NCBI GenBank assembly: GCA_948567375.1 | Contig: OX419759.1 | Span: forward strand, 5,362,744-5,426,743 | DNA: 64,000 nucleotides | Source: Lunularia cruciata | Lineage: Eukaryota; Streptophyta; Marchantiopsida; Lunulariales; Lunulariaceae | Reading direction: 5' to 3' | Part shown: positions 5,069 to 51,148 of the stretch, in pieces | Layout of the letters: each line of letters begins with the position of its first letter | Numbering within the stretch: the stretch's first letter is position 1 | Notes under the pieces: generated by a model | What the model was told of the DNA's origin: nothing | What the model saw: only the letters and a program-made list of their open reading frames with translations | Database searches by the model: none | Program-made: the position numbers and the translations under genes

Positions 5069-5229
5069 TTTTAGTCAACTCTACATCAAGATCCCTTCTT
5101 CCAAATGGTACATGGTCACCTTACGGCATGCAATAAGGAGTACAACACCTTCTCCATCAAGGAGAGCCTTTTATTCCATGAAGGCTTTCCATGAAGACCG
5201 GATCTATGCTCTAGCCAAAGGTGATCTTT

Positions 5230-16683: not shown

Positions 16684-17760
16684 AGGTTTAGTGTGTGGAG
16701 AACACTTTGCAAGAAAGGTGATTGCTTTCAAGATTCTAGATGCAAGTTACCATTGGGGAGGGATTTTCAAGGATTGTATTGATTATTGCAAAACTTGTCA
16801 TGTTTGTTAAGCTTTTGCTAAAAAGTCTACATCCACTCCACCACTTAGATCAATTCCATTGCTAGGACTTTTTGAGAAGTCAAGAATTGATTTTGTAGGT
16901 CCTCTCAATAGAAATCCAAGGAATAGTTGGTATATTGTGATAGTTACTGATTATCTTACCAAGTGGGTTGAGGCTAGACCATTGAGGGACAAGAATAAAG
17001 ATGAGGTTGGTAGATTTCTTTATGAACACATTATCACTAGGTTTAGATGCCCTTTGGAGTTGGTTTTTGATAGAGGAGGAGAGGTTACATGAAGCATTAC
17101 TACAACCATGCTACGGCATTTCTCTATTACACATAGAGTAACTACATCCTATAAGCCAAATTCCAATGGCTTGGCAAAGAGAACCAATCAGACCTTGTGC
17201 ATGATATTGGCCAAATATGCAGAAATGGAGGGGGCTAAACATCATTGGGACAAGAGGATTCATGCATTTTTGTGGGAGTATAGGACAATCGTGAAGACTT
17301 CCACTGGGTATTCTCCATTTCAATTGGTATATAGTATTGAATCTACCTTACCAATTCACTTTGATCTTCTTATGTTCCAAAATATTCATAGGAGATTGAA
17401 GAAAGCATAAGGAGGTGATGTAGAGAAGTCAAGGAAGGAACAACTCATGGAGTTGAAAGAGGCAAGAGCAGTTGCTATGGTTTGAGTGGAGCAAGCCCAA
17501 AGGAAACAAAAGGAGAGCTATGACAAGAGGCAAGGCAAGAAGAAGGTGAAGCCTTTCAAAGAAGGTGATTGGGTAATATTGTTTGATTTTATTTGATTTA
17601 AGAGAGTGCAAAAGAAGTTTTTGCCGAAGTACTTTGGACCTTTCATAGTGGAGAAGGTGTGGGAAAATTCCACCTATGATCTCAAGGAGTTGGGAGGAAG
17701 ACGCTTTGATAGGATTTACCATGATAAGTTGAAGATGTATCATAGAAGGTAGAGAGACCT
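16676..17760 (+). pseudogene. Element A integrase and pol C terminus
   Basis: The zinc region contains DYCKTCHVC near 16785-16808. The core reads RIDFVGPLNRNPRNSWYIVI (first Asp), then LVFDRGGEV (second Asp). NSNGLAKRTNQTL has Lys where the family has the catalytic Glu. A C-terminal block VQKKFLPKYFGPFIVEKV (GPF motif) lies near 17605-17660 and DRIYHDKLKMYHRR ends the frame. No chromodomain follows. Confidence 0.85.
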
Positions 17761-23778: not shown

Positions 23779-24905
23779 TGTTGTTATGTCTATATACATT
23801 GTTACATAATATATATCATTGTCAACATCTTACATTATAGAAACACAACTCACACATAAGTCATACATGAACTCTAAAGTGCTACAATAATCAGTTTATT
23901 CTTCCACTCAAATCACACTCAAATCAGATTTGTACTCTATCCTTCATTCAATAATTTACCAACAATCAGGCACTAATTGTAGTCAAGCTGCATCCACTCT
24001 AGCTAAAAGACTCCAGGTGACCCTCATTGGCCTCTATCCACCATAGCCAAGAAGGAACTCAAAGGTTCAATATCAAAGAAGTGAGCTTTTTGGAGTTGCA
24101 TTTCAAATTTTACCCCTTTGCTTGACTTAGGTCTTAACACTTCTAGCACCACTGATGGCAGATCCAATGGTGTGAATGGTACAAGTGATGGTGAGTCCCA
24201 TTATGTGATCAATAGCCCTAACATGAAATCTGACCTCCAACAAGTAGTCTATAAGTAACTACCAAAATAATTGTGACTGCCAACACTACCACTCCTCCAA
24301 TGTTTGAGCGAACTAGCTTTTGTATGACAATTGTCATGCATATATACATCATTACACAACATTATATACTATAGAAACAAAACTCACACATAAGTAATAC
24401 ATGAATTTTAAAGTGCCACAATTGCCCCTAGCTAGCAATAAGGTCATTCTAACTCCAAATATCCATCTATTCCATGTATATGAGATGCCCTATGGTGGGC
24501 AAAGATCAAGAGGTTAGGTGTTATCCAGCCCCATAGTTAGTCTGTAGTCTATATCACATAAAGCGTGAACAAGCTATAGACCAAGTACATCTACGACATA
24601 ACCACTATCCTTGAGGAACCATCATGAGGGAGGAGTCAAACATACCATATGTCATCCTTTCAAACAACTATCACACACCAACATAGGAGCAACTTAACCA
24701 AAAGAGCCACATAACATACATCATAAACTTACGCATATAAGTGCCAAGCTTGGGTCCATAGTGCCATTAATGTGCGAGAGGTGGCATGGTGCACAATTGC
24801 ACACATGATCCTTCCAAAAAACACCATTACTTCCATCCACCACAAGGACTCTAGAAGGCAAAATCTCATGCACCCGTTAGGTTAAACCTTACGAACATAA
24901 TTGAA
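23779..24905 (-). mobile_element. Element E2: truncated 3' end of Gypsy family E with PHD finger and LTR
   Basis: On the minus strand a pol C terminus is followed by a polypurine tract (ctaggggcaa, 24421-24432) and an LTR at 23779-24420 starting TGTGGCAC. It is homologous to 48670-49811 of element E. The rest of the element (gag to integrase) is absent beyond about 24905. Confidence 0.85.
24560..24790 (-). pseudogene. PHD finger of element E2
   Basis: Minus-strand frame reads NCAPCHLSHINGTMDPSLAL, then CMLCGSFG, a stop, PMLVCDSCLKG, a stop, HMVCLTPP. The C4 half (CxxC and CxxC) and the following H-x2-C are all present. The stop just before His is TGA where PHD fingers have Trp (TGG). It supports the PHD call made on element E because the two copies have independent damage. 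Confidence 0.8.
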
Positions 24906-25378: not shown

Positions 25379-26160
25379 CCGTCTAGTTTGTCCACATCTC
25401 AATTGTTATGACCAATCGCTCAGACAAAACCGCACTAAACTGAGCTTGACTTTTGCACGTCTCACCTTTAATCTTCTGGCCACCGTTGGGAAATAAGTAA
25501 GGTGAAACCAAGAATGCAAATGTGCATGTACCAGTATATATGCACTCAATTAACACATTAATAGGCTGCCCATTTCCTGTTTGAATTCCACCGTTAGTTG
25601 TTGTTGCTGACCAGGATTCCATGACGTACCTCAAGAAGAATGGTTGTAACTCGAGAAGAAACCATTCGGCAAACTCCTCACAGATTGAACAGGCTGTTGC
25701 GCATCCCCCTTCAGAGGGTTCTGGAAACGTTGACATACTGGTGGCTTTCATTCCTTCGTATCCTGTATGCAAAGACACATTTTCTTCAAAAGCTTGTACG
25801 AAATGGGAAGGACATAATGTTTCGCCGATCGCCTCCCTTGCGAATAGGTAGATAGATTCCTCCAATTCTTAAGCTCGTCCTAACTCACCCCAAATATCAC
25901 ACCCATCAGAAGCTACGCGAAGGAGGACGTACGTACGGGGGTGATTGGCACATATCACTCAGATGACTATCGGCTCGGATGCTGGCATGAGTGGCAGCCG
26001 AGCCGAGCCCATGAGCATGGAGAACTTCTAAGGCTGCTTAAATGAGTCGCAGCATAAGCATGGATGGAAAACGTATAAAGCGGTTTCTTCTGGGCACACT
26101 GGGACAAGTCTTTTGGTGGGTGTAAACCAAAGGAGTGATTGATTCCGGGACATCGAGTAA
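25379..26160 (+). repeat. Promoter tandem duplication, unit 1
   Basis: Starts tagtttgtccacatctcaat and ends gattccgggacatcgagtaa. It is homologous to 26161-26910. The position of the permease TATA box is tctaagg here (26027-26033), so this unit probably lacks a working core promoter at that site. Open frames on both strands (for example 25383-25865 minus) are not conserved in unit 2, so I do not call them genes. Confidence 0.85.
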
Positions 26161-26288
26161 TCCTGTCTGCTTTGTCCATATCTCAACTTTAATTCCCCAA
26201 TCGCTCAGACAAAACCGCACTGATGCGCCTCTTGTCCACGTCTAAACTTTAATCTTCTTCCAACCGCTAGGGAAATCAAGAGTGCATG

Positions 26289-26312
26289 TATACTGGTGCA
26301 TGCACCAGTATA
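26289..26312. promoter_or_regulatory. 24-bp perfect palindrome with RY core
   Basis: The inner 20 bases are tactggtgcatgcaccagta and the palindrome extends two more bases each side. The centre contains CATGCA, the RY element bound by B3-domain factors in plant seed-expressed promoters, directly followed by tataagg. In unit 1 the matching region is an imperfect tgcatgtaccagtata. Function is inferred. Confidence 0.5.
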
Positions 26313-26770
26313 TAAGGACTCTTGGCGTGTATACCTGCAAGAGTGCACTAAATTAACATATTAATAGGCTGCCCATATCACCGTCGGTTACTGAGCAGGA
26401 TTCCATGACGTAACTGAAGAAACCATTCGGCAAACTGCACACAGATTGAACAGGTTGTTGTGCATCCTTCTTCAGAGGTTTCTAAAAACGACATACTGGT
26501 AGCTTTCACTCCTTCATATCCTGTATGCAAAGACACATTTCCCCGAAAGCTTGTAGGAAATGGAAAGCAGGATCCGGGTGATTAAGGACCTAATATCTCG
26601 CCAGATCGCCCCCGATTATAAAGCTTTTCCTAACTCACCCCAAATATCATACCCAACGGAAGCCATGCGGGGGAGGACGCACGTAGGGGTGCGATCCCCC
26701 CATGTGACTACTCTGGGCTCTGCTGTAGCCATGAGTTGCAGCCGAGCCGAGCCCATGAGCATGGAGACCT

Positions 26771-26777
26771 TATAAAG
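26771..26777 (+). promoter_or_regulatory. Probable TATA box of the amino acid permease gene
   Basis: TATAAAG lies 145 bp before the start codon and just after the conserved GC-rich block, implying a 5' leader of roughly 110 bp. A second TATA-like tatataagg lies at 26309-26316. Confidence 0.55.
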
Positions 26778-26915
26778 CTGCTCACATGAGTCGCAGCATC
26801 AGCGTAGAAAATTTATTAAGCAGGTCCTCCTCGGGACACTGGCACAAGTTTTCTGGTGGGTGGAAGGCAAAGAACTGATTGATTCCAGGACATTGAGTGA
26901 TCTGTAATCTCGAAA

Positions 26916-29205
26916 ATGAAGTCACAGAAGTCAGATGTAGAATTGGCTACGAGTTCAGCACAAGAACCTGTAGAAGATGAGATGGTGGAAGTGGAACTCG
27001 ACGATGATGGACGTCCAAGACGTTCAGGTATGTTGTCTAATTAGCTTTTGGATGCGGTCAGAGACACAATGATTCTTACACATCTCACTCGTTGAACTTC
27101 CAAATGAATAAACTTACAAATGGCCCGTTGTTGAATACAATGAATTCTTGCATCGGAACTCAATGTCCTCTCCTACTTACATACATAATTCGTTTCTCTT
27201 ACTGTACTGTATTGTGGGGCAGGAACGTTCCTCACAGCCTCTGCACACGCTATCACGGCTGTGATAGGATCTGGAGTGCTTAGCTTGGCTTGGAGTGTTG
27301 CTCAACTTGGCTGGGTAGCTGGCCCGCTGGTGAACTTCGGTTTCGCCGTGATTACGTACTTGACATCCATTCTACTTGCCGATTCTTATCGGTATATGGA
27401 TCCTGTATCGGGGAGGAGGCTGTATACTTACATGGATGCTGTTAAAGCATATCTAGGTGCGTCTAGTTTATGTATTGGTGTATACGCTTCTGATACCATC
27501 TGGAGATATCAGATGTGTATTAGAAATCGTGGGAGAGATCACTTAACCTCAAACTGAGGCTCAAGTGTCAATCGCTAGTCATTTGTTTGCTGGCATTCAT
27601 AGGAACTGTCTACAGTCTTCTCGTCCGCTCACCAGAGAGAAATTCTCAGACGGTTAGGATTATCTCTGAGTGATGTCCGATTAATTGAATGGAGTTTGAA
27701 TCTGTTCGCAGGGCGCTTGGAGACGTTTGTGTGCGGCCTCGTTCAGTACATAAATCTTTTCGGTGTTTGTGTGGGATATACAATCACAGCAGCCACCAGC
27801 ATGGCGTAAGGATTCAGATTTTCCTTTCATTGTGCTCTCAGCTCACAAAGCTTTCAATATCAGGTTCAAGGAACTTGACCGCAGATATCGTGTGTCTCTT
27901 TGTGGCAGGGCTGTTAAACGTGCTGTGTGTTTCCACGAGGAGGGACACAACGCGAGCTGCAAAGTGTCCAGCAATATATATATGTTGATGTTTGGGTTGA
28001 TACAGATCGTCTTCTCTCAGATCCCAAACTTGGCAGAGGCCTGGTGGTTGTCGGTTGTGGCCGCTGTGATGTCCTTTTCATATGCAGGCATAGGTTTAGT
28101 TCTGAGTATTGTCAAGACATTCCATGCCGGGCATTCTCATGGAACTCTAGGGGGTTCTCCAATCGGCCCCGAAGAGGGCGAATACTCTCATGCTGAGAAG
28201 ATTTGGAAAACGTTTTCGGCTATGGGCGACATTGCTTTTGCCTATGGCTTCATAATAATTTTGATCAACATCCAAGTGAGTAAATATTTTCATGTTAGAG
28301 TTCAAATAGTATATAAACTCTCAAGGAATATGTCGAGGTGATTTATCAACAAGCTAACTTTTTGTAGTGGACTGACCATCTTTCTGTTTTGCAATAAAAC
28401 CAGGATACACTTAGACGTCCTCCAGCAGAAAATCGAACGATGAGAAAGGTTGCGCTAGTCACCAACGTAACTTGTACTTTATTCTATCTGTCCGTGGGAT
28501 GTTTCGGATATGCTGCTTTTGGAAATGCAGCTCCTGGAAACTTGCTCACGGGTTTCGGATTCTATGAACCGTACCAATTGGTGGTATTCGGGAACTTATG
28601 CATCGTGGTACACCTGTGTGGAGCCTTTCAGGTAACGTACGACTTTCTTTGTTTGGAAGGTCCTTATTCGTAAAGCCGCCTATGTTAAGTTGTTATCCAA
28701 GCAAACTGTATTCTGACACCTTTTCAACTCAACGGGCTTACACCTAACAACTCTTCTTTCTGTGAACGTTCTTCAGGTTTTTGCACAGCCCCTTTATGCT
28801 TTTGTTGAAGTTAAAGCTAGGAGATGTTTCTTTCGACCAGGCCGCAATGTCAAGACTTTTGCTTTCTCCTTGCCTTATGTCGGGTTGGTCAAAGTAAATT
28901 TAGGTATTCTCGTTTGGAGGTCAGTGTTTGTAGGCTTAACCACATTCATCGCGACATTGTTGCCGTTTTTCAACAGCATCATGGGCATATTGGGGGCCTT
29001 AGGATTCTTTCCTCTGAGTGTCTATTTCCCCGTGCGTATATACATGATGCGAGTAGGGATACAGTCTTTCAGTTGGAGGTGGTGGTTCTTGTGGTTACTC
29101 ATGCTAGCTTGTCTTTTAGTTTCGCTTTGCGCGTTCCTAGGATCAGCAGTGGACATAAAAGCTGCAAGTAAGCATTATATACCTTTTGATGGTAATGTTG
29201 ATTAG
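26916..29205 (+). CDS. Amino acid permease (AAP family, AAAP superfamily), six exons, intact
   Basis: Exons: 26916-27027, 27223-27456, 27712-27805, 27909-28275, 28404-28631, 28777-29205. All five introns (103-255 bp) are GT-AG and the joined frame is 1464 bases (487 aa), the usual AAP length. The family performs proton-coupled uptake of neutral and acidic amino acids across the plasma membrane, with about 11 membrane segments. Visible landmarks: acidic N terminus ending DDDGRPRRSG; TM1 with ITAVIGSGVLSLAWSVAQLG; GRLETFVCGLVQYINLFG; SQIPNLAEAWWLSVVAAVMS; GDIAFAYGF; YAAFGNAAPGNLLTGFGFYE; LPFFNSIMGILGALGF; stop after DGNVD. The start is the first Met of the exon and matches AAP N termini. Oddity: the conserved IEIQDT motif reads INIQDT (Glu to Asn). 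It is the only gene here with no lesion. The nearby pseudogene pieces derive from the same family. Confidence 0.95.
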
Positions 29206-33034: not shown

Positions 33035-33780
33035 TTGGCTGGGGTGATATCCATATCAAATGCTAAATTTGTAGTGGAGACGTTTGATGGGAAAAACTAT
33101 TTTGGACTTTGGCAACTGAAGATGAAGGACCTTCTTGTCCAGCAAGGACTGTATAGAGCACTAAGAAAAAGACATGAGGACAAAAGTGATGAGGATGGGG
33201 AAGATGAAGATGTAGATCTCAGAGCTATTAGCACTATTTGGTTGAACCTTGTTGATAAAGTGCAATACAATGTTATGAATGAGGAATCTGCATCACAACT
33301 ACAGGCCAAATTGGAGAATCTTTATATAACCAAGTCATTGACAAATAGACAGTTTTTGAACAGAAGTTATATATGTTACGGATGAAGGAAGGCTAGAATA
33401 TTATGGAACGCCTCAATGCTTTCAACAAAATCATTTGTGAGTTGATGACCATAGAGGTTAAGTTAGAAAAGAAGGATACGGTATTGCTGTTATTGACTTC
33501 ACTTTCTCCATCATATGAGCATCTGGTCACCACTCTTCTATATGGGAAGGATGATATAAACTGTGAGGAGGTCACTTCAGCATTGTTGTCCACTGAGATG
33601 AGAAAAAGACCCAACCAAGAAAAGACAAATTCAGAGGCTCGTTTTATCAGAGGAAGGATAAGAGAGAGAGATTAGATCAGGAGTAAATCAAGATCCAAGT
33701 CTAGAACAGGAGGTTTCAAAGGCAAGTGCTGGATTTATGGGAAGGTTGGACATTTCAAGAAGGATTGTAACAACAAGAGG
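33035..33780 (+). pseudogene. Element D gag
   Basis: Begins MAGVISISNAKFVVETFDGK and carries the Copia gag pattern FDGKNYFGLWQLKMKDLL. A frameshift near 33350 and a stop at 33390 lead into a second open part (MERLNAFNKIICELMTIEVK, 33403-33675). The zinc knuckle CWIYGKVGHFKKDC near 33728-33769 has Tyr in place of its second Cys. Confidence 0.85.
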
Positions 33781-33846
33781 CTTGAGTCCAACAAGGATAA
33801 AGGTCAAATTTCAGATCAAGCAACTAATGCCGAGTCATCTGGTATT

Positions 33847-34395
33847 GTGTATGATGTTCTACGTGTTACCCAAGACAAAGATCAGTTTGAGGAGTCATGG
33901 ATATTGGACTCAAGTTTCTCTTACCATTTGTGTCCGAACAAGGAGTGGTTTCATGAGTTCAAACAATTCAATGGAGGATCTATAACAATGGGGAACAACA
34001 TGGCTTCTAAAGCTATTGGCATTGGTACAATACACATTAATATGTTTGATGGTATTGTGATGACTCTTGCTGATGTGAGGCATGTTACTAAGTTAAGGAA
34101 GAATTTGATATCACTAGGCACTTTGGACTCAAAGGGTTGGAGGTGGGGAGAAAACAATGGAACACTCAAGGTATCAAAAGGAGCATTGGTTGTAATGAAG
34201 AGCAAGAAGATAAGAAATCTTTATGAGCTTGTTGGAGAGACCAATGTTGGAGGAGTGGCAAGTACTATTTCTGAAAATGAAGATCCCAAAGATCTTACAC
34301 AGTCATGGCACCTACGTTTCGGTCATATGAGTGAAAAGGATCTAAGTGAATTGTCCAAGCAACAACTTGTGAAGGGCCTTAAAATTGTAAGTTAA
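33847..34395 (+). pseudogene. Element D protease and GAG-pre-integrase region
   Basis: An open 182-codon stretch. WILDSSFSYHLCPNKEWF is the Copia protease site, with DSG changed to DSS. WHLRFGHMSEKDLSELSKQQ near 34308-34370 is the GAG-pre-integrase block. It ends at a stop before the integrase. Confidence 0.85.
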
Positions 34396-35039: not shown

Positions 35040-36460
35040 ATGTTAATTACTCTTTACTTAGAGTCTTTGGATGTATAGCTTATGTTCATATTCAACAAGA
35101 ACAAAGGACAAAGTTAGATCCCAAATTAGAAAATGTACATTCTTGGGATATGAGACAGATACAAAGGGATATAGATTATGGGATCCAAAAAGGTGTTGTC
35201 TTGTAGCAAGTAGAGATATAGTTTTTGATGATTCTAGTACGATGAAGACTATGACTATAGCATAAGAAAAGAAAAAACAAATTCCGTCAAATTTTGTTAA
35301 GATAGATATTGATCTTAGAAATGAAGACATCTCACCCCTTGTAGATCTACCACGTGAACCATTAGAAGAGCAAAGTCCAGAATTGATTCATGAACATAGG
35401 TATCCAAATAGGGAGAGAAGACCTCCAAAGAGCAATATGATTCATTTGTAGCTTCTGCTCTCCTTCCACAGAATGGTGGGCTTCTTCAAATGAAGAAGCA
35501 GTGCAAGATCAAGAGTGTCAAAAGTGACATTGTGCAATGGAAGAGGAGATGAAGTCTTTGGCCAAAAACCAAACTTGGAGACTTGAAAAATTGCCTATGG
35601 GAGAGAAGCAATTGGTTGCATATGGATATTCCAAAGGAAGGAAGGACTTCCAAAATCAGGTGGAGATCAATGCAAAGCAAGGCTTGTAGCAAAGGGTTAA
35701 AGCCAAAAAGAAGGTATTGACTTCACTGAGATTTTTCACCAATGGTAAAAATCTCTTCAGTTCATGCACTATTGGCAATAGTTGCATTGCATAACTTGGA
35801 GTTGGAGCAACTAGACCTTACAATTTCTTTTTTACATGGAGAATTGGAGGAGGAGATTTACATGCATCAACCTGAAGGTTTTGTGGTACCAAGGAACCAA
35901 AACCCGGTTTGCAGGTTAAAAAAGCATTTATATGGACTAAAGCAAAGTCCAAGACTTTGGTACATTAAATTTGATGCTTTCATGTTGAAGCATGGATATA
36001 ACAGAAGTGGATCAGATTATTATGTGTACCTCAAGAAGCTACATGGACCTAGAGTATTTGATTTAATCATCTTAGTACTATATGTGTGTGATATGCTTAT
36101 TGATGCAGAGGATATGGTTGAGGCGGAGAATTGAAAGCACAACTTGGTAAGGAGTTTGATATGAAGGACTTTGGCTCTTTAAAGAGGGTGCTTGGGATTG
36201 AAATCCACCAGGATAAGAGCAAGGGAAAGTTATGGATATCTCAAAGGAGATATTTGGAAAAATTACTTGCTTGGTTTGGCATGGAGAATGCAAAACCCAT
36301 GAACACTCCAATGGAAAATCATTTCAGGATATCATTGGAGCAATGTCCATCAAATGAGAAGGAGAGAAAAGTAATGTCAAATATTCCTTACACTAATATT
36401 GTTGGGAGCTTAATGTATGTTGTAATCTGCACTAGACCAGACACCTCATATGTTGTGAGT
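35040..36460 (+). pseudogene. Element D reverse transcriptase
   Basis: RVFGCIAYVHIQQ starts the region, and IRKCTFLGYETDTKGYRLWD follows. RT palm: LTISFLHGELEEEIYMHQPE, VCRLKKHLYGLKQSPRLWY. The active site reads YVCDML near 36080-36100 instead of YVDDML, which removes a catalytic Asp. RT thumb: FDMKDFGSLKRVLGIEIHQD (36131-36652). Confidence 0.88.
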
Positions 36461-36589
36461 ATGGTCAGTAGATGTATGGCAAATCCAGGGAAACAACATT
36501 GGGAAGTTGTGAAGTGGATACTTTGTTACTTGAAAGGGACTATAAATATTGACATTGTCCTTGATATGGAGATGAACCAAAAAGGAGGA

Positions 36590-37074
36590 ATTACAGGGTA
36601 TGTATATTATGATTTTTCCAGAGACTTGGATAAGAGGAGGTCTACAACATGATTTGCTTTTACACTTGTTGGTGGTGCAGTAAGTTGGAAGTCTACTCTC
36701 CAATCACTGGTCGCTCTTTCTACTACAGAGATGGAATATATGGCAACAAGTGAGGCTTTCAAATAGGCAAGATGGCTACAAAGATTAGCCAAGGATGTTG
36801 GACTCCCTAACATGAAGTCGATACTTTTTTGTGATAGCCAAAGCACTATTCAATTGGCCAAAAATCAAGTCTATCATTCAAGGACAAAGTATATTAATGT
36901 GGGACATCATTTTATCAAGGAACTGTGACAAATGGTGAGATCAATTTGCAAAAGATTGGCACAGAGGTAAGCACAGTTGATATGTTGAGTAAACTTGGTC
37001 TGTCAAGAAGTTCAAGTTATGCATGAATTTGCTCAATGTTCAATTGCTCTTTGGATGATATGGTGGATACAAGC
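36590..37074 (+). pseudogene. Element D RNase H and C terminus
   Basis: TFAFTLVGGAVSWKSTLQS, then TTEMEYMATSEAFK, a stop where Gln is expected, ARWLQRLAKDVGLP, FCDSQSTIQLAKNQVYHSRT and YINVGHHFIKEL. These are the standard Copia RNase H blocks in order. Confidence 0.85.
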
Positions 37075-39280: not shown

Positions 39281-39740
39281 TGTCACGCCATTTGTAGTGT
39301 CATATCTAGATTGCTCGGACATTGGAGTTCCATTGATAGTAATTAGAGTTATTTAAATAATTTCTTGGAGACTACTTTTCGATGATCAGATTTTTTGTTT
39401 GGGGTATTGACTTCACGGTGAGGCACACCATCACTTTGCACCGTTTGCACCGTTGAGTGTGCCATAAGCAGGACCATTAGGGTTTCAGACCTAGCTCGAC
39501 TCCAGGGAGTATACTTTCCAAGTGCAGCTCCAAAGAGCTCACTTCTCTGATGTTGAGCCTTCAAGTTGTTGGCTATGGTGAATAGAAGCCGACGAGCATC
39601 ACCTGGATTCTCTTAACTAGAGTGGGTATGGCTTGATTGTAATCAATGCTCAGTTGTTTGCAATTTATAGAGTGACAAATCAAGTATTGATCTGAGTTGA
39701 GTTGATTCGAGAGTTTATTCGAGAGTTATATCACAAAAGT
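39281..39740 (+). repeat. 5' LTR-like region of element E
   Basis: Homologous to 49244-49700 (ccatttgtagtgt...gagttgattcgagagtt), with the same gacttcacggtg and gtgtgccat blocks. A possible primer site ttggtatct is near 39783, which is not a strong match. Confidence 0.75.
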
Positions 39741-40275: not shown

Positions 40276-41232
40276 AAAGTGCCAAGAAGAAAGGCCTCAT
40301 TTGGGCGTTTGAAGGCTTCAAGGCATAGGGTTGTGGGCTATGAGAGGCTACAAAGGCCTAGAAGGGCTAACTTGCTCGTGTGAGGCTAGCTAGTTTAGAG
40401 TAAATCTTGGCCATTGGTTGGCAAAATCTGCCCATACTACTAGAGTGTGCGCAATAGGGTTTACCCCTAGATCTCTTGTTCCTAGATTGGTGCCCTAGCC
40501 AATTGGTCCACTCTCACTTGTTGTCGTAGTGATAGTACCACTGTTATCTATACACTTGTAGCTTTGGTTAGGAGGGGCAGTTTGATCACATTACTGGTGA
40601 TCTTGGTAGCTTAGGACTAAAATACAAACTTCTCTTATGTCAAATACCAAATTGTGGTAGAGTCAATCCCATGTTGTTTTATGAAATGGAGTGTTTTTTG
40701 TTTAGATTTCTTGTGATTCAACCCCTTCCATTCTCTACTTCTTGTTTGTGCACCATGTTTGTGTGAGCTGCCTTGACTTTTGAGTGTTGCTACTCTAGTG
40801 TGCTTTTGGTAGTGAGGCTAGAGTGATAACTAGTCCGACTATCTTTGTTTCTCTCCAGTGAGGTAGGAAGTGATGACCTGCAGATCATGAGAGTGCGTGC
40901 TGTGATGGCAGATTACAAGTTGCACTTTCCCCTAGGGTAGTTATCTTTGTTAGAGCTACATTAGTGGGTGGTGTTCCATGGGTATTGGCACTTGTGGTGT
41001 ACTTGCGGTTGCAATTTGTGGTTCCAGTTTGCGGTTGCACTTGTGGTTTCTTTGTCACAATGGAGTTTGTTGGGGATTCTAGAGGAGTAAGCCTTGCAAT
41101 ATATAGTGGGTTTACTTGGAGTGGCTCTCAATATCAGCCTGTTTCTAAGGTCCTAGTGAGGGAGGAGATTGACTTTGAGTTGGAGTTTGACAAAGAGTTG
41201 ATTCAGTGAGAGTGCACTTGGTGTGTATGTAC

Positions 41233-41922
41233 TATGAGCCCGCCTGTCTCTCACTCAAGATGAACCTCTGATGGCTATTATGGTAGTGCACCATGGACAA
41301 AGAAGACAAGGAACCCCAACTCCATCATACTCCTTCAAGGCTAACACTCCAAGACTCAGACATTGCTCACTAGAGAACTCAATGAGAGAGAGATAGTTGC
41401 AAAATGAAAGGATGATGAGTACCTTCTCACCCCTTGTTTATATACTTGTGAAATAGCTACGTACCAAAGTTACTAATTACCACGGTAACTCAAGTTTCTA
41501 TACTAAAAGTCAAATAAAGTCAAAAAGTAGAAAGGAATATCCATTCACATGGGTATATTCCACTAGTAGTGATCTTATCTTGACCTAACCACTAAGTCAA
41601 AGATTCCTTCAAATGTGCTATCCTTGGACTATAGAAGAATCTAAAACAAAAAGGCTTGCGGGTCCAAGAGTTTTCAACTCTTTCCTCAAAGCGAAACACC
41701 TAGGAATAATACCAAGTCAACACACTACAATCCAAAATAGTGATGCTCATCTTTTCCACTTCCTCTAAAGTAAGTTCCCCTCTATCTTAGTTGTGACTAA
41801 CTTTAGCTAATCATGACTAATGTAGAACCATCCTTTATATGTATATAAATAATATCTATCAAGTACTTGTAAAACCAAGCTAAATATCACAATACCACAC
41901 ACATGCACAAATGGGTGTTACA
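41233..41922 (-). mobile_element. Solo LTR of family A inside the element E leader
   Basis: Reverse complement of the element A LTR, full length, ending gggtgttaca at 41922. It retains the TATA-like tatataaac missing from A's 3' LTR. Flanks are gtac (left) and atac (right). No internal region remains, the product expected from LTR-LTR recombination. It sits just before the first recognisable gag codons of element E. Confidence 0.92.
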
Positions 41923-41940
41923 ATACTGTTGTTGTGAGAC

Positions 41941-43480
41941 ATGAATGAGATTTATGGGGTCTCCAAAGGCCCAAGGCGTTACTTTGGTACAATGGGTACC
42001 ATTGAATTGGATGACTTCATCCAAGAGTTCAATAGTTGGTGTGATCTACAGCAGATGCAAAACTCAACTTTGTTTACACCCTTCATGGCATGGAAATGGT
42101 TATTTCAGCACTTTGAGTATCCACCAATGGATGACTACCATGAGTTCAAACAATCTCATTTGGAGGAGATTGAGTTATGGAGACAATATTGGTCTCCAAC
42201 TATATCTTTATCACTTCATGCTCGGTTGCCAAGAGAAGATCGGTTGTACACACAAGTTCTCGCTCAAGTAGTCTTGGCGGAGCTAGTGGAGGTGCACTAG
42301 CTGGAGATAGTGTTACCACGAGTGGAGGTACCGCTGCATGAGGTGGTGTGGTATCCGGGTTAAACTCCATGGTGGAGTTTTTTTAGTGTTTGAGGCAAAA
42401 CGACTAGGGAGTGCGGATTGACAAGTTGAGGAGCTTGCAAGATTTCTAGCGGAAGGCTAGAGAGAGCCTATGCAAGGCATACACTCGCATGAGGCAGCTG
42501 ATCAATTTCACCTGGAGTTACTGAGGCCCAGGAAGTCCTATTTTGGTATGGGATATTGGACAAGGAGTTTCAATGTAGAGTTTGTGATGTTATGTTGTTA
42601 TAGGCTACTTCGCTTACTTTGGTAGTGGTCTTTGGTTTGGTTGAGCGTATTGAGCTCAACATGGAGAGAATGTTGACATCTGGATTTGGTAGGGAGACCT
42701 TGTCCACGGTTGTGACTTCTTCTAGAGTGTAGCAAATTGCACCATGCTTAGTTGTTTTTTGAGGATAGGGTGGACAGCCTAGATCTTATGGAGCGAGTGG
42801 AGTGCCTAGTGGAGCTAGACCTTTACCTTCATTTTGGGTCAACAACACCCAATGAGTAGTGGTGTTGCTTGCTGGACTTGTGGTGGACCTCACCATAGGA
42901 GAGAGTGTACCTGGGGCAACGGACCTGATACCTTTGGTGCATCACAGCCAACATAGAGGTAGTGTGAGCATTGCCACTGATTTGGTCACACTAATGACCA
43001 ATGCTTTGACCTACACCCAAAGTTACGGAGTTGTAGGGCTATTATGACAGGTAGTAGAGGAGCTCCAATTCATGGAGGACAAGGTGGTAGAGGATCTACA
43101 CCTAGTGGAGGTGAAGTACTTGCCCTTACTTTTGATACAACTATGGCTACTCGGATTGAGCAATTGGAGCAGAGATTGGCTAGTACGGCCATTGCTCAGA
43201 GGAGATCAGATTTGGGTGCCAAGGCTTCCACCTCGTATGCTGGTGATAGAGATGCTTTGGACTTCATGTGTGGAGTAGCTCAGGTGAATGCATCTGCATC
43301 AGTGACTAGGAGTGCAGTATGTGCTCCAGAGTCCAGAGGAACATCAATGGAGTTAGGAGAGGATAGATTGGGAGACAGGTTAGACTTCCCCAATCTTTCA
43401 TGTTATTTGAGGCATTGTAGATGACATCCATGGCTCCCAGACGTCCCAATGCAGGTGTGGTAGGTGGTGATGGAGTGCAT
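41941..43480 (+). pseudogene. Element E gag
   Basis: The open stretch 41941-42300 reads MNEIYGVSKGPRRYFGTMGT and PFMAWKWLFQHFEYPPMDDY, a retrotransposon gag-like region. Two zinc knuckles follow: CWTCGGPHHRREC (about 42868-42906), and a second with ligands C-x2-C-x4-H-x4-C ending HTNDQC (about 42967-43010), with one in-frame stop inside. A coiled-coil-like segment, RIEQLEQRLASTAIAQRRSD, is near 43155-43215. Frameshifts separate the pieces. Confidence 0.75.
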
Positions 43481-43558: not shown

Positions 43559-44160
43559 ATGCGATGCTCTTTGTTTTCAGCCACTGATATGTTCACATTG
43601 GGAGTTGACCCAGCCCTAATGTTTTGGTTGGCTGCCATGCTTTATGAGAGTAGGGATGATGCAATTCCTACTACTATAGCAGAGGTGGTTGGTAGTGGAG
43701 CTGACTTGGTTGATGAGCATGGGATTTTTTTAGTGGTTTATGGTAGACTGGAGGAGTTGCCAGTTAGATTAGCCTTTGAGAGAGCACGGTTCACACTTGG
43801 TGTTGTCCTATTGGATAACCAAAGGGGGATTTTCAGCTTGGTGGGACCTTTAGGGAATATCTGTACACCAGAGAAAGTGTTGTTAGACTCTAGTGCGCAG
43901 CCCCTTATGTTGGGGAGGGTTGCAATAGTCGGTCTAGAGTTATGAATGACCGATGTGGAGAGGTGTCCATTTCAAATCCAAACATTTCTAGGTGGTGGTT
44001 TGACATTGTACATCACACGTGAGGAGCTTGTTGTTCATGTTCAACTTGGTCATCCGACTGATAGTTTGATGGTGAGAGCTTAGGCTATTGTGACAATAGC
44101 TAAGTCATATGATGTGCTAGTTGGGGGAGCAGTGTTATACCCCCTGGGTTTCATTACTGA
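43559..44160 (+). pseudogene. Element E aspartic protease
   Basis: VLLDSSAQPLMLGRVAIVGL contains the retropepsin-type LLDSxAQ site, with the Asp codon at 43886-43888 (Ser replaces the usual Gly). CPFQIQTFLGGG and KSYDVLVGGAVLYPLGF follow in another frame or after a stop, consistent with the protease C-terminal half. The upstream 43559-43800 open stretch has no assigned function. Confidence 0.65.
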
Positions 44161-44589
44161 CTATTAGGAGGAGATAGCCTCCTATGGACCAGGTTGGCAG
44201 TCAGGTGAGGGACGGGTATGTCGCCTACTAATATGCTTTAGTTGTGGTAGTCTTGGCTCACTACAATTCAGGACCATGGCAACATTAGTTTTAGCTTTCA
44301 GTGGTGTAGTTACTTGGCCTGATGACTTGTTGGAGTGGAATGCCCATGCAGAGGATACTCCAATACCAAAGGAGATCAAACTCAGATTTGGAGTACAAGT
44401 AGGATTGTTCCATCCACCTTGGATTTTCCATTGTGGAGTTTGGAGGAGGCATTGCAGCAACATGCGGATCAATTGGTGCAATAGGCTTGGAGTGGAGCCT
44501 TCATACCATCACGAGATGAGTGTGAGGATGAGCCTCTAGAGTCAATAACTTTGACACCTCTGGATACCACACTCATTGTCGAGCAGTAT

Positions 44590-45625
44590 CCAATAGAGGA
44601 GATATGTCTATTGGAGTTGTTTGGTGGGATTAGCACCAAACTAGCTGCGGTATTATAGGTGGGTATACAAGTACAGAGGTACTTGTATGTAGAGAGATAT
44701 GAGACTGCTAGGCGAGTCTCTCTACACCATGTGGCACACTTGGCCTATCGATATCCAGAATTATTACCAATGTCAACAATTAGAGATTACCAGAAGGCCC
44801 TACCATCAAACATTTCCTTATTGGGGGTGCATGATTTAGAGAGACATGGGCCTATTCACTTGGTGATTTTTGGATGGCCATGTTAGGGACTTACACATGC
44901 AGGCCGCGGTCTGGGTCTTTAGGATCCTAGTTTAGATGTGTTTTGGGAGATATTACAGATACTATGACATCTCTAGGTTCATCAGTCCGTTTCAACAACT
45001 TACCTTTTGGAGAATGTTCCTTTGATGGGTGATTCTCACACCAGAGTGGTGGTGAGTACACATCAAGTCCATTCCTGGATGGGACCTATTGTATTGTTAG
45101 ATGCAGCTAGAGTGGGATCACGTGCTCATCATCTTTGTGGACAAACCTTTTACTCAAAGAGGTTCTACAATGTGCTTGTGATGGGATTCAGCAACTTGAC
45201 CACATCCTTGTTGATGATGACTTGGATGTTGGGCGTAAGTCTCAGACAGTGATAGTGGCTGATAGGTTACCTATGGTAGTGGTGAACCTAGTTGGACAAC
45301 CTAGAGCCAGATTTTGCACACTCATGAGTTTCCCAAGCTCTCATGCGTTTCAAGCAAGAGCACGAGGACTTGTTTGGGACTAACGATTATAGCAGTTGGT
45401 GGAGCCCAATGCGGATGAGAGAGAGCGGTGATGGGTTTTTGCACCGGTATTACTGTTGTTCCAGCAATGTTAGAGGTGTCTATGCGTCAAGTGTTAGGTC
45501 AGGCTATGGACCTGAATTATTTGACCTGGATTGTGAGCCTTGGCTTGGCAGAGCAGCGTAGGATGTTCTTGATAGGCATCACCACTCGAAAACTTGTGAG
45601 CCATGTGCCTATCGAGATGATTTAG
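44590..45625 (+). pseudogene. C5-cytosine DNA methyltransferase-like domain of element E
   Basis: The enzyme class transfers a methyl group from S-adenosylmethionine to C5 of cytosine. Motifs appear in canonical order. Motif I: LLELFGGISTKLAAVL (44608-44655). Motif IV: VIFGWPC, catalytic Cys codon 44881-44883, followed at once by TAG where the family has Gln (PCQ). Motif VI: LLENVPLMGDS (Glu codon 45010-45012). Motif VIII-like: LDAARVGSRAHH (45095-45132). A target-recognition-like stretch starts WTNL after a frameshift and ends FPSSHAFQARARGLVWD (45135-45380). Motif IX/X: EPNADERER, then MGFCTGIT, then MRQVLGQAMDLNYLTWIV (45395-45530). It lies between protease and RT. At least five in-frame stops and two frameshifts make this copy non-functional. 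The match is by motif order, not by alignment. Confidence 0.82.
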
Positions 45626-45939
45626 GCACATGCCGGGGGCGATGGACCATGGACATGGTATTCTTGGGACAACTAATAGCTACTAGGGAGAGTGGTCTAC
45701 TTGGAGTCCATCCAAGTGAGCGTGGGCTACTTGGATTACACCCTTGGTCTACTTGGGATGCAGCTAGAGGACGTGTGGATCTTGTAGCCAGGGTGGAGTG
45801 AGTTTTTCACACAAAGCTTGGTACCTCTAGTGGTTGGAGGCATGACACTATTGCTCCCAAGGGCCCAGTATAGCAGCCAGTCAATACATCTTCCACTCCT
45901 ACAACAGTTACAAAGGATACTTGGGAGCCAGATCTTGGA

Positions 45940-46980
45940 CCCAAGCTTAGTAGAGAGGAAAGACATAGGGTTTGGAGGTTCTTGAGGAGCCACATGAGTT
46001 GTTTTGGCTTCAGTATGAAGGATTTGGGTGATCTAAAGGGACCTAATATAAGGATTGAATTGAATAACAATACACCAATTTTCCGACATCCTTATCGATA
46101 TAGTGATATGGAGAAGACATTGATTTAGAGCCAAAGTAGTGACCTTTTTGAGCCTGGTTTGGTGGAGATTTCACATGGAGAGTATGCATCAATGACAATG
46201 ATGCCAACCAAGAACAATATGCATGGCAACTACACATATAAGCGGATGTGTGGAGATTACCGTCCTATCAACCAACTGACCAAGGCTGATCAATATGCCA
46301 TGCCTACACCATAGGAGATTTTTGATGTGATTAGGCATGCAAAGGTCTTTATTACTTTGGATCTTTGAGTGGGATATCGTCAATTACCAATTAGGGAGGA
46401 GGATAAGTCGAAGACAACATTTTGGGTTATTGATCCTCACGGTAAGGATATGTTATATCAGTGGAGGTTCTTACAATTAAGGTTAAAGTACAATCATGAT
46501 GAGTTCCAAAGGGTCATGGATAGGATCCTAATTGGATTGGATTTTGCTTGGTACTATATTGATGACATTTTGGTCTATAGCACTAATGTGGAGGAGCATG
46601 AGAGACAATTGTTGGAGGTGTTTGAGAGGTTGAGATCTCACGGACTCAAATTACATTTGGGAAGTGTAGGTTCTTCCACGAGTAGGTTGAGTATTTGGGT
46701 CACACTATCTATCCTGAAGGACTTGGTGTTCAATAGACCAAGGTGAAGGCTATTGCATGTATTCTTTGGCCTACAGATGTGAGCAGAGGGCAAGCATTTC
46801 TTGGGTTGGCAAACTTCTATCAGCGCTATGTTAGAAGATTTAGTGCCATTACCAATGCCTTGACAAAGCTGACCAAGCTTACATGGGAGTGGTGTTAGGG
46901 AGATGAGCAGGAGAAAGCTTTTGTGGAGCTCAAGGAAAGGTTGACATCTGCTCCTATTTTAAGGAGACTGATCAAAGGAT
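45940..46980 (+). pseudogene. Element E reverse transcriptase
   Basis: RVWRFLRSHMSCF leads into RT. MCGDYRPINQLTKADQYAMP lies near 46235-46310; a stop follows at the position usually Gln. LDL, a stop, then VGYRQLPIREEDKSKTTF near 46365-46425. Active site WYYIDDILVYS with YIDD codons at 46555-46566, intact. After a frameshift near 46660, EYLGHTIYPEG and FLGLANFYQRYVRRFS represent the thumb/connection. Confidence 0.88.
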
Positions 46981-47370
46981 GACCATTTCAGGTTCATATT
47001 GATTAGAGTATGTTGGGGCTTGGAGCGGTGCTCACCCAACATGATGATGAGGGGAGGGAGTTTTTGATGGCCTATGCTAGTTGCTCCAACAATTCAGAAG
47101 AGGCAAAGTATAGTTCATATGAGTGAGAGTGCTTGGTAGCAGTTTGGGCAGTAGCACATTTCTGATGTTACCTATTTGGTAACCCTTTTATTCTCATCAT
47201 TGATCATCAGCCACTGAAGTGGTTGATAGAGTCCGAGAAGCTTTTAGGGGAAGCTTGTAGGATTGGCTCTGATTTTACAAGAGTATGATTTCATGGTTGT
47301 TCACAAACTTGGAGTGGTGAACCATGATGCAGATAGGTTGAGTAGAAACCCATGTCCCATCCATCAAGAT
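46980..47370 (+). pseudogene. Element E RNase H
   Basis: FQVHID (stop) SMLGLGAVLTQHDDEGREF carries the first catalytic Asp. MAYASCSNNSEEAKYSSYE, VAVWAVAHF and IIDHQPLKWLIES follow. This is standard Gypsy RNase H order; stops interrupt at three places. Confidence 0.8.
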
Positions 47371-47689
47371 CAGACCTAAAGCACGTTGGCATGGTGAGAG
47401 AGATGAGGAGATGGTGGTTGGGTGGCATGAATTGGCATTTTTGTGTATATTTTCTTAGGCTTTGGTGGTATCTCTCTCAACCCATACAGGAGGAGTTATT
47501 GAGGTCAGAGATCCAGAGAGTGAAGATATTTGTACAGTTTATGATGGACTATCTTCACATTGGTGTGGGTAGCACAATTGGGGCCAAGGAGAGAGACTGT
47601 GTTCTTCAGTGAGCCAGATGGTTCAGATTGGAGGACAGACACCTTTTGCTTGTATAAGAGGATAGTAGAATGAGAGTAGTACCACTTCC

Positions 47690-48560
47690 ATCTTAGAGAC
47701 TACGGTTGGTCAGTCATGCTCATGAGGAGCTAGGATATTTTGGAGTAAAGCGTACATATAGCTTACTCTAGAGTAACTATTGGTGGCGCGGTATGCAAAC
47801 CAAGGTATAATAGTTTGTTGCCAGATGTGTGGTTTGTGACCAAGTTAGAGCATCATTCAATGCTCCTACATCATAGTTACACCCATTACCCATCATGGGA
47901 TTGGGTTACCGTTGGAGTTTGGACTTTGCTAGACCTTTACCACTGACTGTTAGACATCATTGGTATGTTTTGGTGATGGCGGAGCACTTCTCCAAGTGGA
48001 TTGAGTTGGTGGCACTTCTTGACAAGTCCAGTGAAGGGACCACTTACTCATTCCTAGATCAAGTTCTTAGTCAATTTGGTGCACCAGTTGAGGTTTTGAC
48101 TGATTCGGGTATAGAGTTCTTGGGGGAGTTTCAGGTCTTGTGTGACAAGGCTTTGATTGATCATCATACTACATCCTAAGACCACCTTGAGGCAGATGGC
48201 TTAGCAGAGAGAGTGGTTCAGATGGTGAAGAGAGGACTACAAAAGTATGGTTTGCAAAGAGGCCACTTGGGAGATTGGGATCTCCAATTACCTTGGTTGG
48301 CCATGGGCTATCGGTTCAGCCAGCAAGCCTCCTTGGCATCATTCTCTCCTTTCTTTCTACTCTGTGGATGAGATCCCAATTTACCTATAGCCATTCGTCA
48401 AGATGCTACTATAGTCTTGGACTTGGATGATCCAGATGTGTGGGTGAGCGCATGTTCTCAATGGGCAGAGATCTTTTGGAGAGTGATACCGATGGCCTTT
48501 GAGAACTTGGAAATTGCTCAGCATAAAGATACCTTATGTTACACCACTATTTGTGGATAA
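47690..48560 (+). pseudogene. Element E integrase
   Basis: H2C2-type zinc region: SHAHEELGYFGVKRTYSLL and CVVCDQVRAS. Core: WSLDFARPLPLTV (first Asp, codon 47922-47924), VLTDSGIEFLGEF (second Asp, 48102-48104), DHLEADGLAERVVQMVKRGL (Glu, 48189-48191). The complete D,D-E triad survives despite stops. Downstream FHPGNY near 48585 is the start of the integrase C-terminal barrel. Confidence 0.88.
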
Positions 48561-48669: not shown

Positions 48670-48960
48670 ATGAGGTTTTGCCATCTGGAGTCCTTGTGTT
48701 AGGAGGATGTGATGGTGTTGTTTAGAAGGATCATATGTGCAATTGTGCGCCATGCTACCTCCCAAACAATGATGGTACTATGGATCCAAGCTTGGCACTT
48801 GTACATGCAAGCTTGAGGTGTATGTTATGTGGCTCTTCTGGTGGAGTTGCTACTATGTTAATGTGTGATAGTTGTCCCAAGAGGATGGCATATGGCATGT
48901 ATGACTCCTTCACTCACGGCGGTTCCTCAAAGACAATGATTATGTCCTAGATGTACTTGA
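48670..48960 (+). pseudogene. PHD finger at the C terminus of element E pol
   Basis: LRVHEVLPSGVLVLGG precedes CNCAPCYLPNNDGTMDPSLA and then a Cys4-His-Cys3 finger: CMLC (48819-48830), MLMCDSC, a one-base shift, WHMAC, MTPSL, and the final CPRCT with a stop at 48958-48960. All eight zinc ligands in C4HC3 spacing are present and the finger ends exactly at the stop, so it is the true C terminus. PHD fingers read histone H3 tails. In this position a role in target choice, like that of chromodomains, is an inference. One frameshift and one stop break it here. The E2 copy at 24.6-24.8 kb has the same finger. Confidence 0.82.
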
Positions 48961-49128
48961 CCTATATCTAGTTCATTCTTTATACGGTATAGATTGTAGA
49001 CAGGCAACTAACAATGGGGCTCCATAGCACCCGGCCTCTCAATCTTTGCCCATCATAGGGTATACCATATACTTAGAGTAAATGGCTATCTAGAGTTAGA
49101 GGGACCTAACCGCCAACTAGGGGATGAT

Positions 49129-49811
49129 TGTGGCACTTTAGAGTTATGGCACTTTATGCATGACTTATGTGTGAGTTGTGCTTCTATAGTGTATGCTGTT
49201 GATAGCAATGAATGTTGTGTAGTGATGTATATATGTACAACAATTGTCAGCCCATTTGTAGTGTTGCATCTAGATTACTTGGACACTAGAGTTCCAGCTA
49301 TAGTAGTTAGAGTTTCTTTAGCAGTTTCTGAGAGACTACTTTTTGACAATCAGATTTCATGTTTGGGGTACTGACTTCACGGTGGAGCCCACCGTCACTT
49401 TGCACCATTTGCACTATTGAGTGTGCCATTAGCAAGACCATTAGGGTTTTAGACCTAGCTTGAGTCCAAGGGGTATACTTTTGAAGTGCAACTCCAGAGA
49501 GCTCACTTCTTTGATGCTGAGCTTTCGAGTTCCTAGCTATGGTGGATAGAGGCTAACGAGCATCACATACATTCTCTTAGTTAGAGTGGGTGTGGCTTGA
49601 CTGTAATCATTGCTCAATTGTTGGTAGTTTGTAGAGTGATAGATCAAGTATTCTGATCAAGTGATCTGAGTTGAGTTGATTTGAGAGTTGTAAAAAATCT
49701 GATTATTGTGGCACTTTAGAGTTTATGTATGACTTATGTGTGAGTTTTACTTCTATAGTGTATGATGTTGACAATAATTTATGTTGTGTAGTGGTGTATA
49801 TACGCACTACA
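49129..49811 (+). repeat. 3' LTR of element E with an internal terminal repeat
   Basis: Begins TGTGGCACTTTAGAG straight after the polypurine tract and ends about CACTACA. Its first 110 bp or so (49129-49243) recur as its last 105 bp (49707-49811). The same arrangement exists in E2 (start at 24420, repeated start at 23886). Confidence 0.75.
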
Positions 49812-50868
49812 AATGCAATACTATATGCTTCCTCTCCTCAGGGTTGGGTAAATTCAATCCTAAATAGAAATGGGCTGCAAAAGGTACAAAGTAGTAGGAT
49901 GGCCAACCCATCCTCCATTGCCTTATCATCTGCTTCATCCTAATGTAGAAGCACCTTGTCTTATTTACACTCTATGTTGCAAACATGAAGTGGAATAAAA
50001 TGGCTTCTTGCTTTGTTACATATGTAGTCTACTTTGCCTTCATCATCACCCCAAAGCTACTTTGGCTCATCAGGTTGACATATGTATCTACCTTATATCC
50101 ATCTTTCTTGCAAGGTTCACTAAAGGACTTCTTCAGCTCCTCTATTTCTTCCATAGGATCACTCTTCCAATCAAAGGTGATCATGGTAGGCTTCCCTGCA
50201 TCCCATCCTAACACTAACCTCCAATTGGACTTGGGCCATTGGGTCAGGTTTCCTCTCTTTTCTTCCTCCTCAAGACCATCCTCACAATTGCTAGGTGTGA
50301 TTTCTCTCATGAATCCTAGAAAACTAAGATTCTAGTTCCATGCCAAGAAAGAGATTTGAAGTCGGCTCAAGACATTGAATTGGGCCACCATATCAATTTA
50401 CCTAATTACAAGATTTCAGACCAAGATGGTTGAAACCTATCTTCCTTCCTTGAATGACATTGTGCTTCTCTTTTCACTCGGCTTTGCACACAAAAAAATT
50501 GCAACTTGGCTTGCAATTCTAACATGATTAGGAAACTCTTCAAAGGCATAAGATAATCTTTTAGCATTGCAAAATCCCTCCAACAAAATCTTGATTTTAT
50601 AGTCCTCTGTAGCTCAACCATTCTTTACTTGAAACCATAGTCAAAGATCATGCATAATGCATGTGTTATTCTTGTCACTTTCAACTTTATCCTCATACAA
50701 AGTATATGTTCTTGTTATTTGTACCTTCTTGGCTGGTACAGCCCGAGTCATAGTTATTAGGGATCTTTGGATTGGATTATTCATTCCAATGCAAAGTATC
50801 ATCACTTTGGATCATCCGTCCTTCCAAGTCTGATCTGATTCTTCACCTTCTCTAATAAAAATCTGACC
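49812..50868 (-). pseudogene. Unassigned decayed coding sequence
   Basis: Minus-strand frames 50621-50406 (MVELQRTIKSRFCWRDFAML) and 50310-50029 (MREITPSNCEDGLEEEEKRG) lie in series with another frame reading SYAFEEFPNHVRIASQVAIF across 50580-50450. The sequence looks like decayed protein-coding DNA, possibly gag-like, but I recognise no domain. Confidence 0.3.
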
Positions 50869-51148
50869 ATCAATACGTAGTCTATGAGTAACTACCAAAA
50901 TACTTTTGATTACCAACACTGCTACTCCAAAGTCCAAGCAATCTAGGTGCAATGCTACAAATGATATGACAACTATCATGTGTATATACATCATTACACA
51001 ACATACATCAATGTCAACATCACACACTATAGAAGCACAACTCACACATAAGTCATACATGGACTCTAAAACTAGGAAGTGCGGATTGACAAGTCCAGGA
51101 GCTTGCAAGAGTTCCAATAGAAGGTTGGAGAGAGCCTACACTATTGAA
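50868..51148. repeat. Mosaic of two family-E fragments
   Basis: 50868-51064 is a minus-oriented piece of the E LTR (acttatgtgtgagttgtgct on the minus strand). 51065-51148 is a plus-oriented piece of E gag (gaagtgcggattgacaagt, as at 42412). The junction of opposite orientations shows rearrangement. Confidence 0.75.

Follow-up and report, generated by a model that had tools for sequence, protein, structure and literature searches.

Within a 64,000-nucleotide stretch of the Lunularia cruciata genome (contig OX419759.1; hereafter the window), positions 44605-45550 are, almost beyond doubt, a dead C5-cytosine DNA methyltransferase (MTase) domain that belongs to an old copy of a Ty3/Gypsy-type retrotransposon abundant in this genome. 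Plants silence transposons through cytosine methylation; here the transposon itself is predicted from its sequence to bring the methylating enzyme, and to do so in thousands of copies. Retrotransposons bearing DNA methyltransferases (DNMTs) are already known, and what is new is a predicted DNMT-bearing Gypsy-type element in land plants that is present in thousands of copies, has its MTase on the Gag side of a conserved TAG and carries a PHD finger on its integrase. Searches of open-licence PubMed Central papers listed no report of a DNMT-bearing retrotransposon from a land plant, though one may still be in print.

The methyltransferase domain and the element around it

Compared by tblastn with the MTase domain of genomic copy L010, the window matches in three pieces (44605-45135, 45138-45428 and 45419-45550) at 77-82% identity. 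The motifs LLELFGG, GWPC, LLENVP, ERER and LGQAMD lie in the three-frame translation where the initial annotation had placed them, its catalytic cysteine codon is borne out by the sequence, and tblastn agrees with its placement of the segment between protease and reverse transcriptase (RT) (Table 1). The Pfam DNA_methylase profile (PF00145), which it had proposed as a check, recognizes the open frame of L010 (E 3.4e-7, 30.5 bits against a cut-off of 22); the stop-free window piece 44977-45252 searched by itself gave no Pfam match. The window copy is broken, with 14 stops across the second half of ORF1 when read in the L010 frame with insertions ignored and a stop immediately 3' of the catalytic Cys, and its motif VIII reads AHH in place of AHRLR. 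Because it is 87.7% identical to L010 over ~3.5 kb (the 59 other alignable copies reach 92.8-98.8% over their longest piece) and its A1 and A2 repeats are only 81.6% alike, we regard it as an old insertion.

Table 1. Features of the retrotransposon copy, in window positions
Feature	Positions	Strand	Basis
Terminal repeat A1, element 5' end, TGTCACG start	39281..39712	+	85% to A1 of L016; 81.6% to window A2 (445 columns)
~700 bp missing from copy L016, probably a later insertion	41227..41924		gap between blastn pieces (end 41226, start 41925)
Decayed Gag, to second CCHC knuckle	41941..43004	+	tblastn 73-85%, four pieces
Decayed aspartic protease	43784..44206	+	tblastn 77%
Decayed DNMT3-type C5-cytosine MTase domain	44605..45550	+	tblastn 77-82%, E 1.9e-130; motifs by eye
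Motif IV (GWPC) catalytic Cys codon, stop codon next	44881..44883	+	sequence
Conserved in-frame TAG separating ORF1 and ORF2, then CAG-CCA	45871..45873	+	TAG in 58/60 copies, window included
Decayed reverse transcriptase	46024..46742	+	tblastn 78-89%
Decayed RNase H	46878..47252	+	tblastn 81%
Decayed integrase	47646..48245	+	tblastn 84%
Decayed PHD finger, internal frameshift	48756..48957	+	tblastn 81%, two pieces
Terminal repeat B1	49127..49233	+	blastn
Terminal repeat A2	49245..49679	+	blastn 83%
Terminal repeat B2, element 3' end	49705..49811	+	blastn 90%

The element reads A1, Gag-protease-MTase, TAG, RT-RNaseH-integrase-PHD and B1-A2-B2. In L009 and L010 the protease and MTase share a single 1,428-aa ORF with a Gag in which two CCHC knuckles are visible by eye, and in L012 and L013 a 1,037-aa ORF follows the stop in the same frame and encodes RT, RNase H, integrase and a PHD finger, the last of these recognized in L013 by PF00628 (E 2.2e-10) and resembling the fingers of CHD4, KMT2D and KDM5 among the best 60 of 102 PDB matches. 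The domain order, with RT-RNaseH before integrase, and the Pfam matches in L010, L011 and L013 are those of Ty3/Gypsy elements; in place of the tyrosine recombinase of DIRS elements L013 has Integrase_H2C2 and rve. Gag stays under its Pfam cut-off (E 0.2), and the protease is recognized by its motif and by PF13650 in the relatives P0015 and P0017. Of 60 copies, counting the window with the 59 others, 58 have TAG at the end of ORF1, one has TAA and in one the stop is missing, and the stop lies in the context TAG-CAG-CCA in 51 of the 60 and TAG-CAG-YYA in 55. UAG-CAR-YYA is the tobacco-mosaic-type read-through context. Since the MTase lies upstream of the conserved TAG and ORF2 continues in frame, the MTase would be made together with Gag, and RT only after read-through. 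The earlier description of the domain as part of the polyprotein thus holds, with one refinement: the domain sits in the Gag-protease ORF and would be produced at the level of Gag besides being made within Pol.

Two identical long terminal repeats were not found, and the ends of the family are instead split in a DIRS-like manner (A1...B1-A2-B2), with A1 (447 bp) at the left and B1 (107 bp), A2 and B2 at the right. The B1-A2-B2 arrangement is present in all four readable right ends (L015, L016 with L079, L017 and the window), and A1 stands without a nearby B in all three readable full left ends (L009, L016 and the window), a count from which L015 and L017 were left out on account of their rearranged left ends. 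The outer ends are TGTC...GACA, conforming to TG...CA, and are flanked by exact 4-bp target-site duplications in L015 (TAGC) and L016/L079 (GAGG); the duplication of the window copy is inexact. L015 and L016 carry the junction word GACA-GC-TGTC letter for letter, unlike the window. From the G-rich run upstream of B1, ordinary reverse transcription would be expected to yield B-A ends, and we infer that A...B-A-B ends would result if a circle carrying two repeats were opened at the GACA-GC-TGTC word. The expected primer-binding site, at about 700-730 of L016 and after A1, lacks TGG but has ATCAGAG, which resembles the complement of initiator-Met tRNA. The left ends of L015 and L017 have a different leader in common, and in L017 the sequence 3' of B2 is 81% identical to that of the left region; these features may point to a subfamily or to a nested insertion.

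The domain belongs to the DNMT3 type, as its motifs I, IV, VI, VIII, IX and X are unpermuted and its best match is DNMT3. A PDB search at E <=0.01 returned 30 sequences, 29 of DNMT3 type plus HaeIII, and a 40-sequence profile matched 54 PDB sequences at E <=0.001, including DNMT3A (5e-21), the plant DRM enzyme 4onj (1.7e-10), DRM2 (2.9e-8) and HhaI (1.7e-6); none of the 54 was labelled DNMT1 or CMT. The best PF00145 matches outside the retrotransposon family are five host loci, which by their motifs are DNMT3-like (L001, L004), DRM-like (L002, L029) and CMT-like (L003). Ten retrotransposon MTases (retro-MTases) cluster together (100/99) in a tree that also holds host DNMT3-like and DRM-like sequences, DNMT3A and five phage MTases, and they stand apart from all of these; the four cellular rows are under half filled and the order outside the retro group is not fixed. 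BLAST against L010 ranks phage MTases (73-85 bits) above the DNMT3A stretch (56 bits), a retro-MTase HMM scores the best phage protein (65 bits) and DNMT3A (60 bits) about equally, and only one of 355 phage records at E <=1e-3 covers 80% of the domain. Candidate sources of the MTase are therefore, on these comparisons, a host DNMT3 and a phage or bacterial-type gene. Among full-length retro-MTase domains, the catalytic Cys is present in 67 of 69 and the ENV asparagine in all 69; in motif IV, EC takes the place of PC in 19 of the 69, a feature noted for environmental retro-MTases.

Copies, conservation and relatives

From a PF00145 search of the 565.8-Mb genome, which yielded 2,161 candidates at first look, 123 were scored. 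A search with the MTase protein gave 13,265 candidates, the best 125 of which, once scored, proved 96-100% identical, with 123 spanning all 318 residues and two spanning 317; in 13 of these 125 the match is free of stops within an open frame of at least 1,428 aa. Genome matches are spread over nine contigs. A 26-mer just 3' of the MTase, which 54 of the 59 sampled copies carry without a mismatch, occurs 2,224 times in the genome (its reversed control, 0), which puts the family at no fewer than 2,224 copies; an earlier 30-mer that held one TAG variant gave five matches and was discarded as too specific. The sample itself was drawn from the 123 PF00145 places, of which 80 were listed from the fifth on and 60 fetched, 59 of them aligning to L010; L029 was rejected as a family copy, being a host DRM-like gene.

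A filling of at least 90% is reached in all 59 aligned copies for the protease, in 58 for the MTase and in 56 for RT, and 55 copies reach it for every one of the three; as the copies were chosen by their MTase match, the share of copies without an MTase cannot be read from this sample. The protease-MTase-RT order, for which the initial annotation had proposed a search elsewhere in the genome, is thus present in many further copies, and together with the single ORF joining Gag, protease and MTase it upholds the view that the domain is part of the element and not a host gene. With an MTase in the coding region of so many copies (55/59; 2,224 matches), the family is a DNMT-bearing retrotransposon. 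The motif IV Cys is intact, with PC kept, in all 59 sampled copies, and just six of the 59 are stop-free across the second half of ORF1. Transitions among copies amount to 8.6% at CG, 6.3% at CHG, 1.5% at CHH and 0.8% at A/T sites, an excess at CG and CHG that fits methylated copies and would be left by host silencing and self-methylation alike.

The window holds further repeats and host-like sequence. On its minus strand, 23791-24867 is the decayed 3' part of a second family copy, with a PHD piece (24783-24628) and pieces of the A and B repeats, and 50857-51139 contains small B and A pieces in inverted orientation plus a short Gag-region match. Other Gypsy-type relics lie at 3935-5789, 9590-10165, 13458-12772 (minus) and 15957-17215, their RT, RNase H or integrase being 27-35% identical to the MTase-bearing family. 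By eye, Copia-like open frames occupy 33676-34395 and 36122-36652, and open frames resembling host amino-acid permease exons occupy 25383-29205.

Of the ORF1 segments, the MTase is conserved best in each of the six relatives compared. In Marchantia P0001 it is 75% identical, against 68 for Gag, 61 for the protease, 47-55 for the linkers and 40 for the tail, and in environmental P0013 it is 53% identical, against 28, 41, 29-30 and 23, respectively. Within the genome, counts of replacement to silent changes, limited to changes outside CG and CHG sites, stand in the MTase at 140:50 for singletons (1.12 of expectation), 26:21 for changes in 2-5 copies and 9:16 for those in at least 6 copies (0.22 of expectation; p 3e-4). 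The linker upstream gives 53:42, 10:5 and 5:7 in the same classes, and the protease segment gives 263:83, 101:29 and 1:11, figures disturbed by misaligned ends. This selection test is not uniformly positive, because neither the ORF1 tail (63:22, 7:3, 5:2) nor the start of ORF2 (57:25, 8:3, 4:1) shows an excess of silent shared changes.

A protein search with the whole ORF returned 46 proteins, namely 14 from Marchantia polymorpha (59-72%), one from Sphagnum fallax (47%) and 31 environmental sequences, and a search with the MTase domain matched 271, of which 120 were listed. Names among these listed matches include Calypogeia fissa, Riccia sorocarpa, Marchantia paleacea, M. polymorpha, Sphagnum troendelagicum, S. 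tenellum and one bacterial MAG; all plant names among them thus belong to Marchantia, Calypogeia, Riccia and Sphagnum, in keeping with the land-plant element that had been proposed. A third search, in which the best 8,000 candidates were scored, recovered one Marchantia protein and three close kin besides the query itself. The best full-length match in the first two protein searches is 74% identical, so proteins of L. cruciata itself are probably absent from that database; no Klebsormidium nitens protein is among the matches listed (the 46, 120 of the 271, and the third search), and no relative was found in the viral contigs searched. P0052 from the moss S. troendelagicum, 72% identical over 84% of the domain, is as close as the Marchantia proteins, which could reflect an old lineage, transfer or contamination; P0068, named from the bacterial MAG, comes from a contig of 2.4 kb and probably represents contamination by eukaryotic sequence.

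Three domain orders occur. Type A, with Gag-protease-MTase before RT, accounts for 21 of the 46 proteins, many of them cut or broken; type B, with the MTase between RNase H and integrase, for 22, 12 of which show the full RT-RH-MTase-IN order; and type C, with the MTase before RT, for three, plus P0167-P0169 from the third search. A PHD-like pattern is present in all six type C proteins and most type B proteins. In the MTase tree, types B (100/98) and C (98/97) each fall on one side of a branch, with domain-only rows among type A, and in the RT tree the same is true of A (100/99, with just two rows), B (83/92) and C (100/100). The MTase may have changed its place in the polyprotein, or else related MTases were acquired separately by sister lineages; such a module, in any event, can occupy different places in a polyprotein. 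Type B environmental proteins P0024, P0025, P0027, P0030, P0033 and P0039 have a conserved C-terminal region past the PHD finger, in which Pfam gave nothing beyond a sub-threshold Tudor match in P0039; an amino-methyltransferase identity for this extension was rejected as unsupported (best PDB E 0.49).

A broader reading, which we put forward tentatively and with considerable doubt, is that these proteins belong to an old Gypsy lineage with a writer and a PHD reader, its MTase in one of three positions (protease-MTase before RT, RNaseH-MTase-integrase, or MTase-RT), which inhabits liverworts, peat mosses, environmental hosts and maybe, as the Klebsormidium element, algae of that genus. Such elements would methylate their own cDNA in the particle, integrate via a two-repeat circle, which would explain both the split repeats and the GACA-GC-TGTC junction, and make up a sizeable part of some bryophyte genomes.

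Proposed role of the methyltransferase

Our explanation as a whole, which takes in element identity, a Gag-level MTase, packaging, self-methylation and PHD targeting, is one on which we are evenly divided. Translation of ORF1 would supply the MTase at the same level as Gag and protease, with RT-RNaseH-integrase-PHD added by occasional UAG read-through, an arrangement that would put the MTase inside the particle. There it could methylate the element's own double-stranded cDNA, or else the fresh insertion, de novo, and the integrase-borne PHD finger would help pick chromatin for integration. Self-methylated cDNA would resemble host DNA; alternatively, new copies would enter a heritable silent state in which damage is limited and copies accumulate. 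That the MTase methylates its own cDNA or new insertions is a step to which we give somewhat less than even weight. Points in favor of the explanation are the DNMT3 class, the conserved catalytic residues, the conservation of the MTase, the TAG context, the at least 2,224 copies and the PHD finger, and in a published test (PMC5890265) a retrotransposon DNMT methylated CG de novo. Points against it are the transition excess at CG and CHG, which host silencing would explain equally well, the lack of silent-change excess in the ORF1 tail and the start of ORF2, and the small number of sampled copies (6 of 59) that are free of stops in the second half of ORF1. Environmental relatives whose MTase lies inside Pol argue against a general need for a Gag-level dose.

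Under the foremost alternative, which we consider unlikely, the MTase is retained because it works in trans on the DNA of the host or of rival elements, for instance to damp competitors or host defence genes, and not because it methylates its own cDNA. Gag-level expression, as deduced from the TAG, would allow a pool of free enzyme and the DNMT3-type class suits such a role, but no trans target is known here and a promiscuous writer in thousands of copies would presumably cost the host. Slightly less likely still is a MTase fold whose activity on DNA has been lost or changed, so that it serves as a nucleic-acid binder or RNA MTase in the particle. Such a change would accord with the EC found for PC in motif IV of 19 of 69 full-length retro-MTases, and RNA methylation has been raised for LINE-borne DNMTs in PMC5890265; against it, the L. 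cruciata copies keep PC, with the motif IV Cys in 59 of 59 sampled. For a functionless passenger, captured once and carried along, speaks the broken state of most sampled copies, 53 of the 59 being interrupted by a stop in the second half of ORF1; this reading is nevertheless improbable, given that the MTase tops ORF1 conservation in six of six comparisons, has fewer shared replacement changes and is kept in three domain orders, and we reject it. A similarity due to chance, or to an independent host gene that overlaps the element, is rejected with near certainty: nothing was found for it beyond the decay of the window copy taken alone, and it is opposed by the window match (E 1.9e-130), the 2,224 exact matches to the neighbouring word, the nine contigs and the one ORF that joins Gag, protease and MTase.

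With its PHD finger the element joins a reader to the writer. Marchantia polymorpha is a model liverwort with methylomes and genetics, and its relatives of the element make retrotransposon self-methylation testable in a land plant. Some Marchantia and Sphagnum entries named DNA (cytosine-5-)-methyltransferase (P0002, P0052) would be transposon products, not host genes; according to PMC5784723, M. polymorpha has five DNA methyltransferases (MET, CMT, DRM).

Comparison with known systems

Chromoviruses are Ty3/Gypsy elements with a chromodomain, a chromatin reader at the integrase C-terminus. The L. cruciata element shares a reader in that position, but its reader is a PHD finger and it adds a DNA-methylation writer. 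With cellular DNMT3 (human DNMT3A/3B and the host DNMT3-like locus L001) it shares MTase class and motif order, whereas the retro-MTases group apart (100/99). Retrotransposon DNMTs in dinoflagellates and charophytes, mentioned in the initial annotation, are indeed reported in PMC5890265, which describes them in DIRS and LINE elements of Symbiodinium and in a Gypsy element of Klebsormidium, and a 2025 paper (PMC12344493) cites them for streptophytes and dinoflagellates; the available passages of PMC10952607, PMC9516144 and PMC9033089 name no such element. SymbioDIRS-Dnmt3 and SymbioLINE-Dnmt of Symbiodinium resemble the present family in being retrotransposons with their own DNMT, de novo CG methylation being reported for SymbioDIRS-Dnmt3 in PMC5890265, but they are dinoflagellate tyrosine-recombinase DIRS and LINE elements and the L. 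cruciata element is a Gypsy with a DDE integrase. The nearest counterpart is KnitGypsy-Dnmt3 of Klebsormidium nitens (de Mendoza et al. 2018, PMC5890265), which likewise has a DNMT3-type MTase in a Gypsy coding region, Gypsy-typical domains within a DIRS-type repeat structure and a streptophyte host. Its MTase is described there as lying within the Pol ORF and its copies as fewer than those of the Symbiodinium elements, whereas the L. cruciata element has its MTase on the Gag side of the TAG, thousands of copies and a PHD finger.
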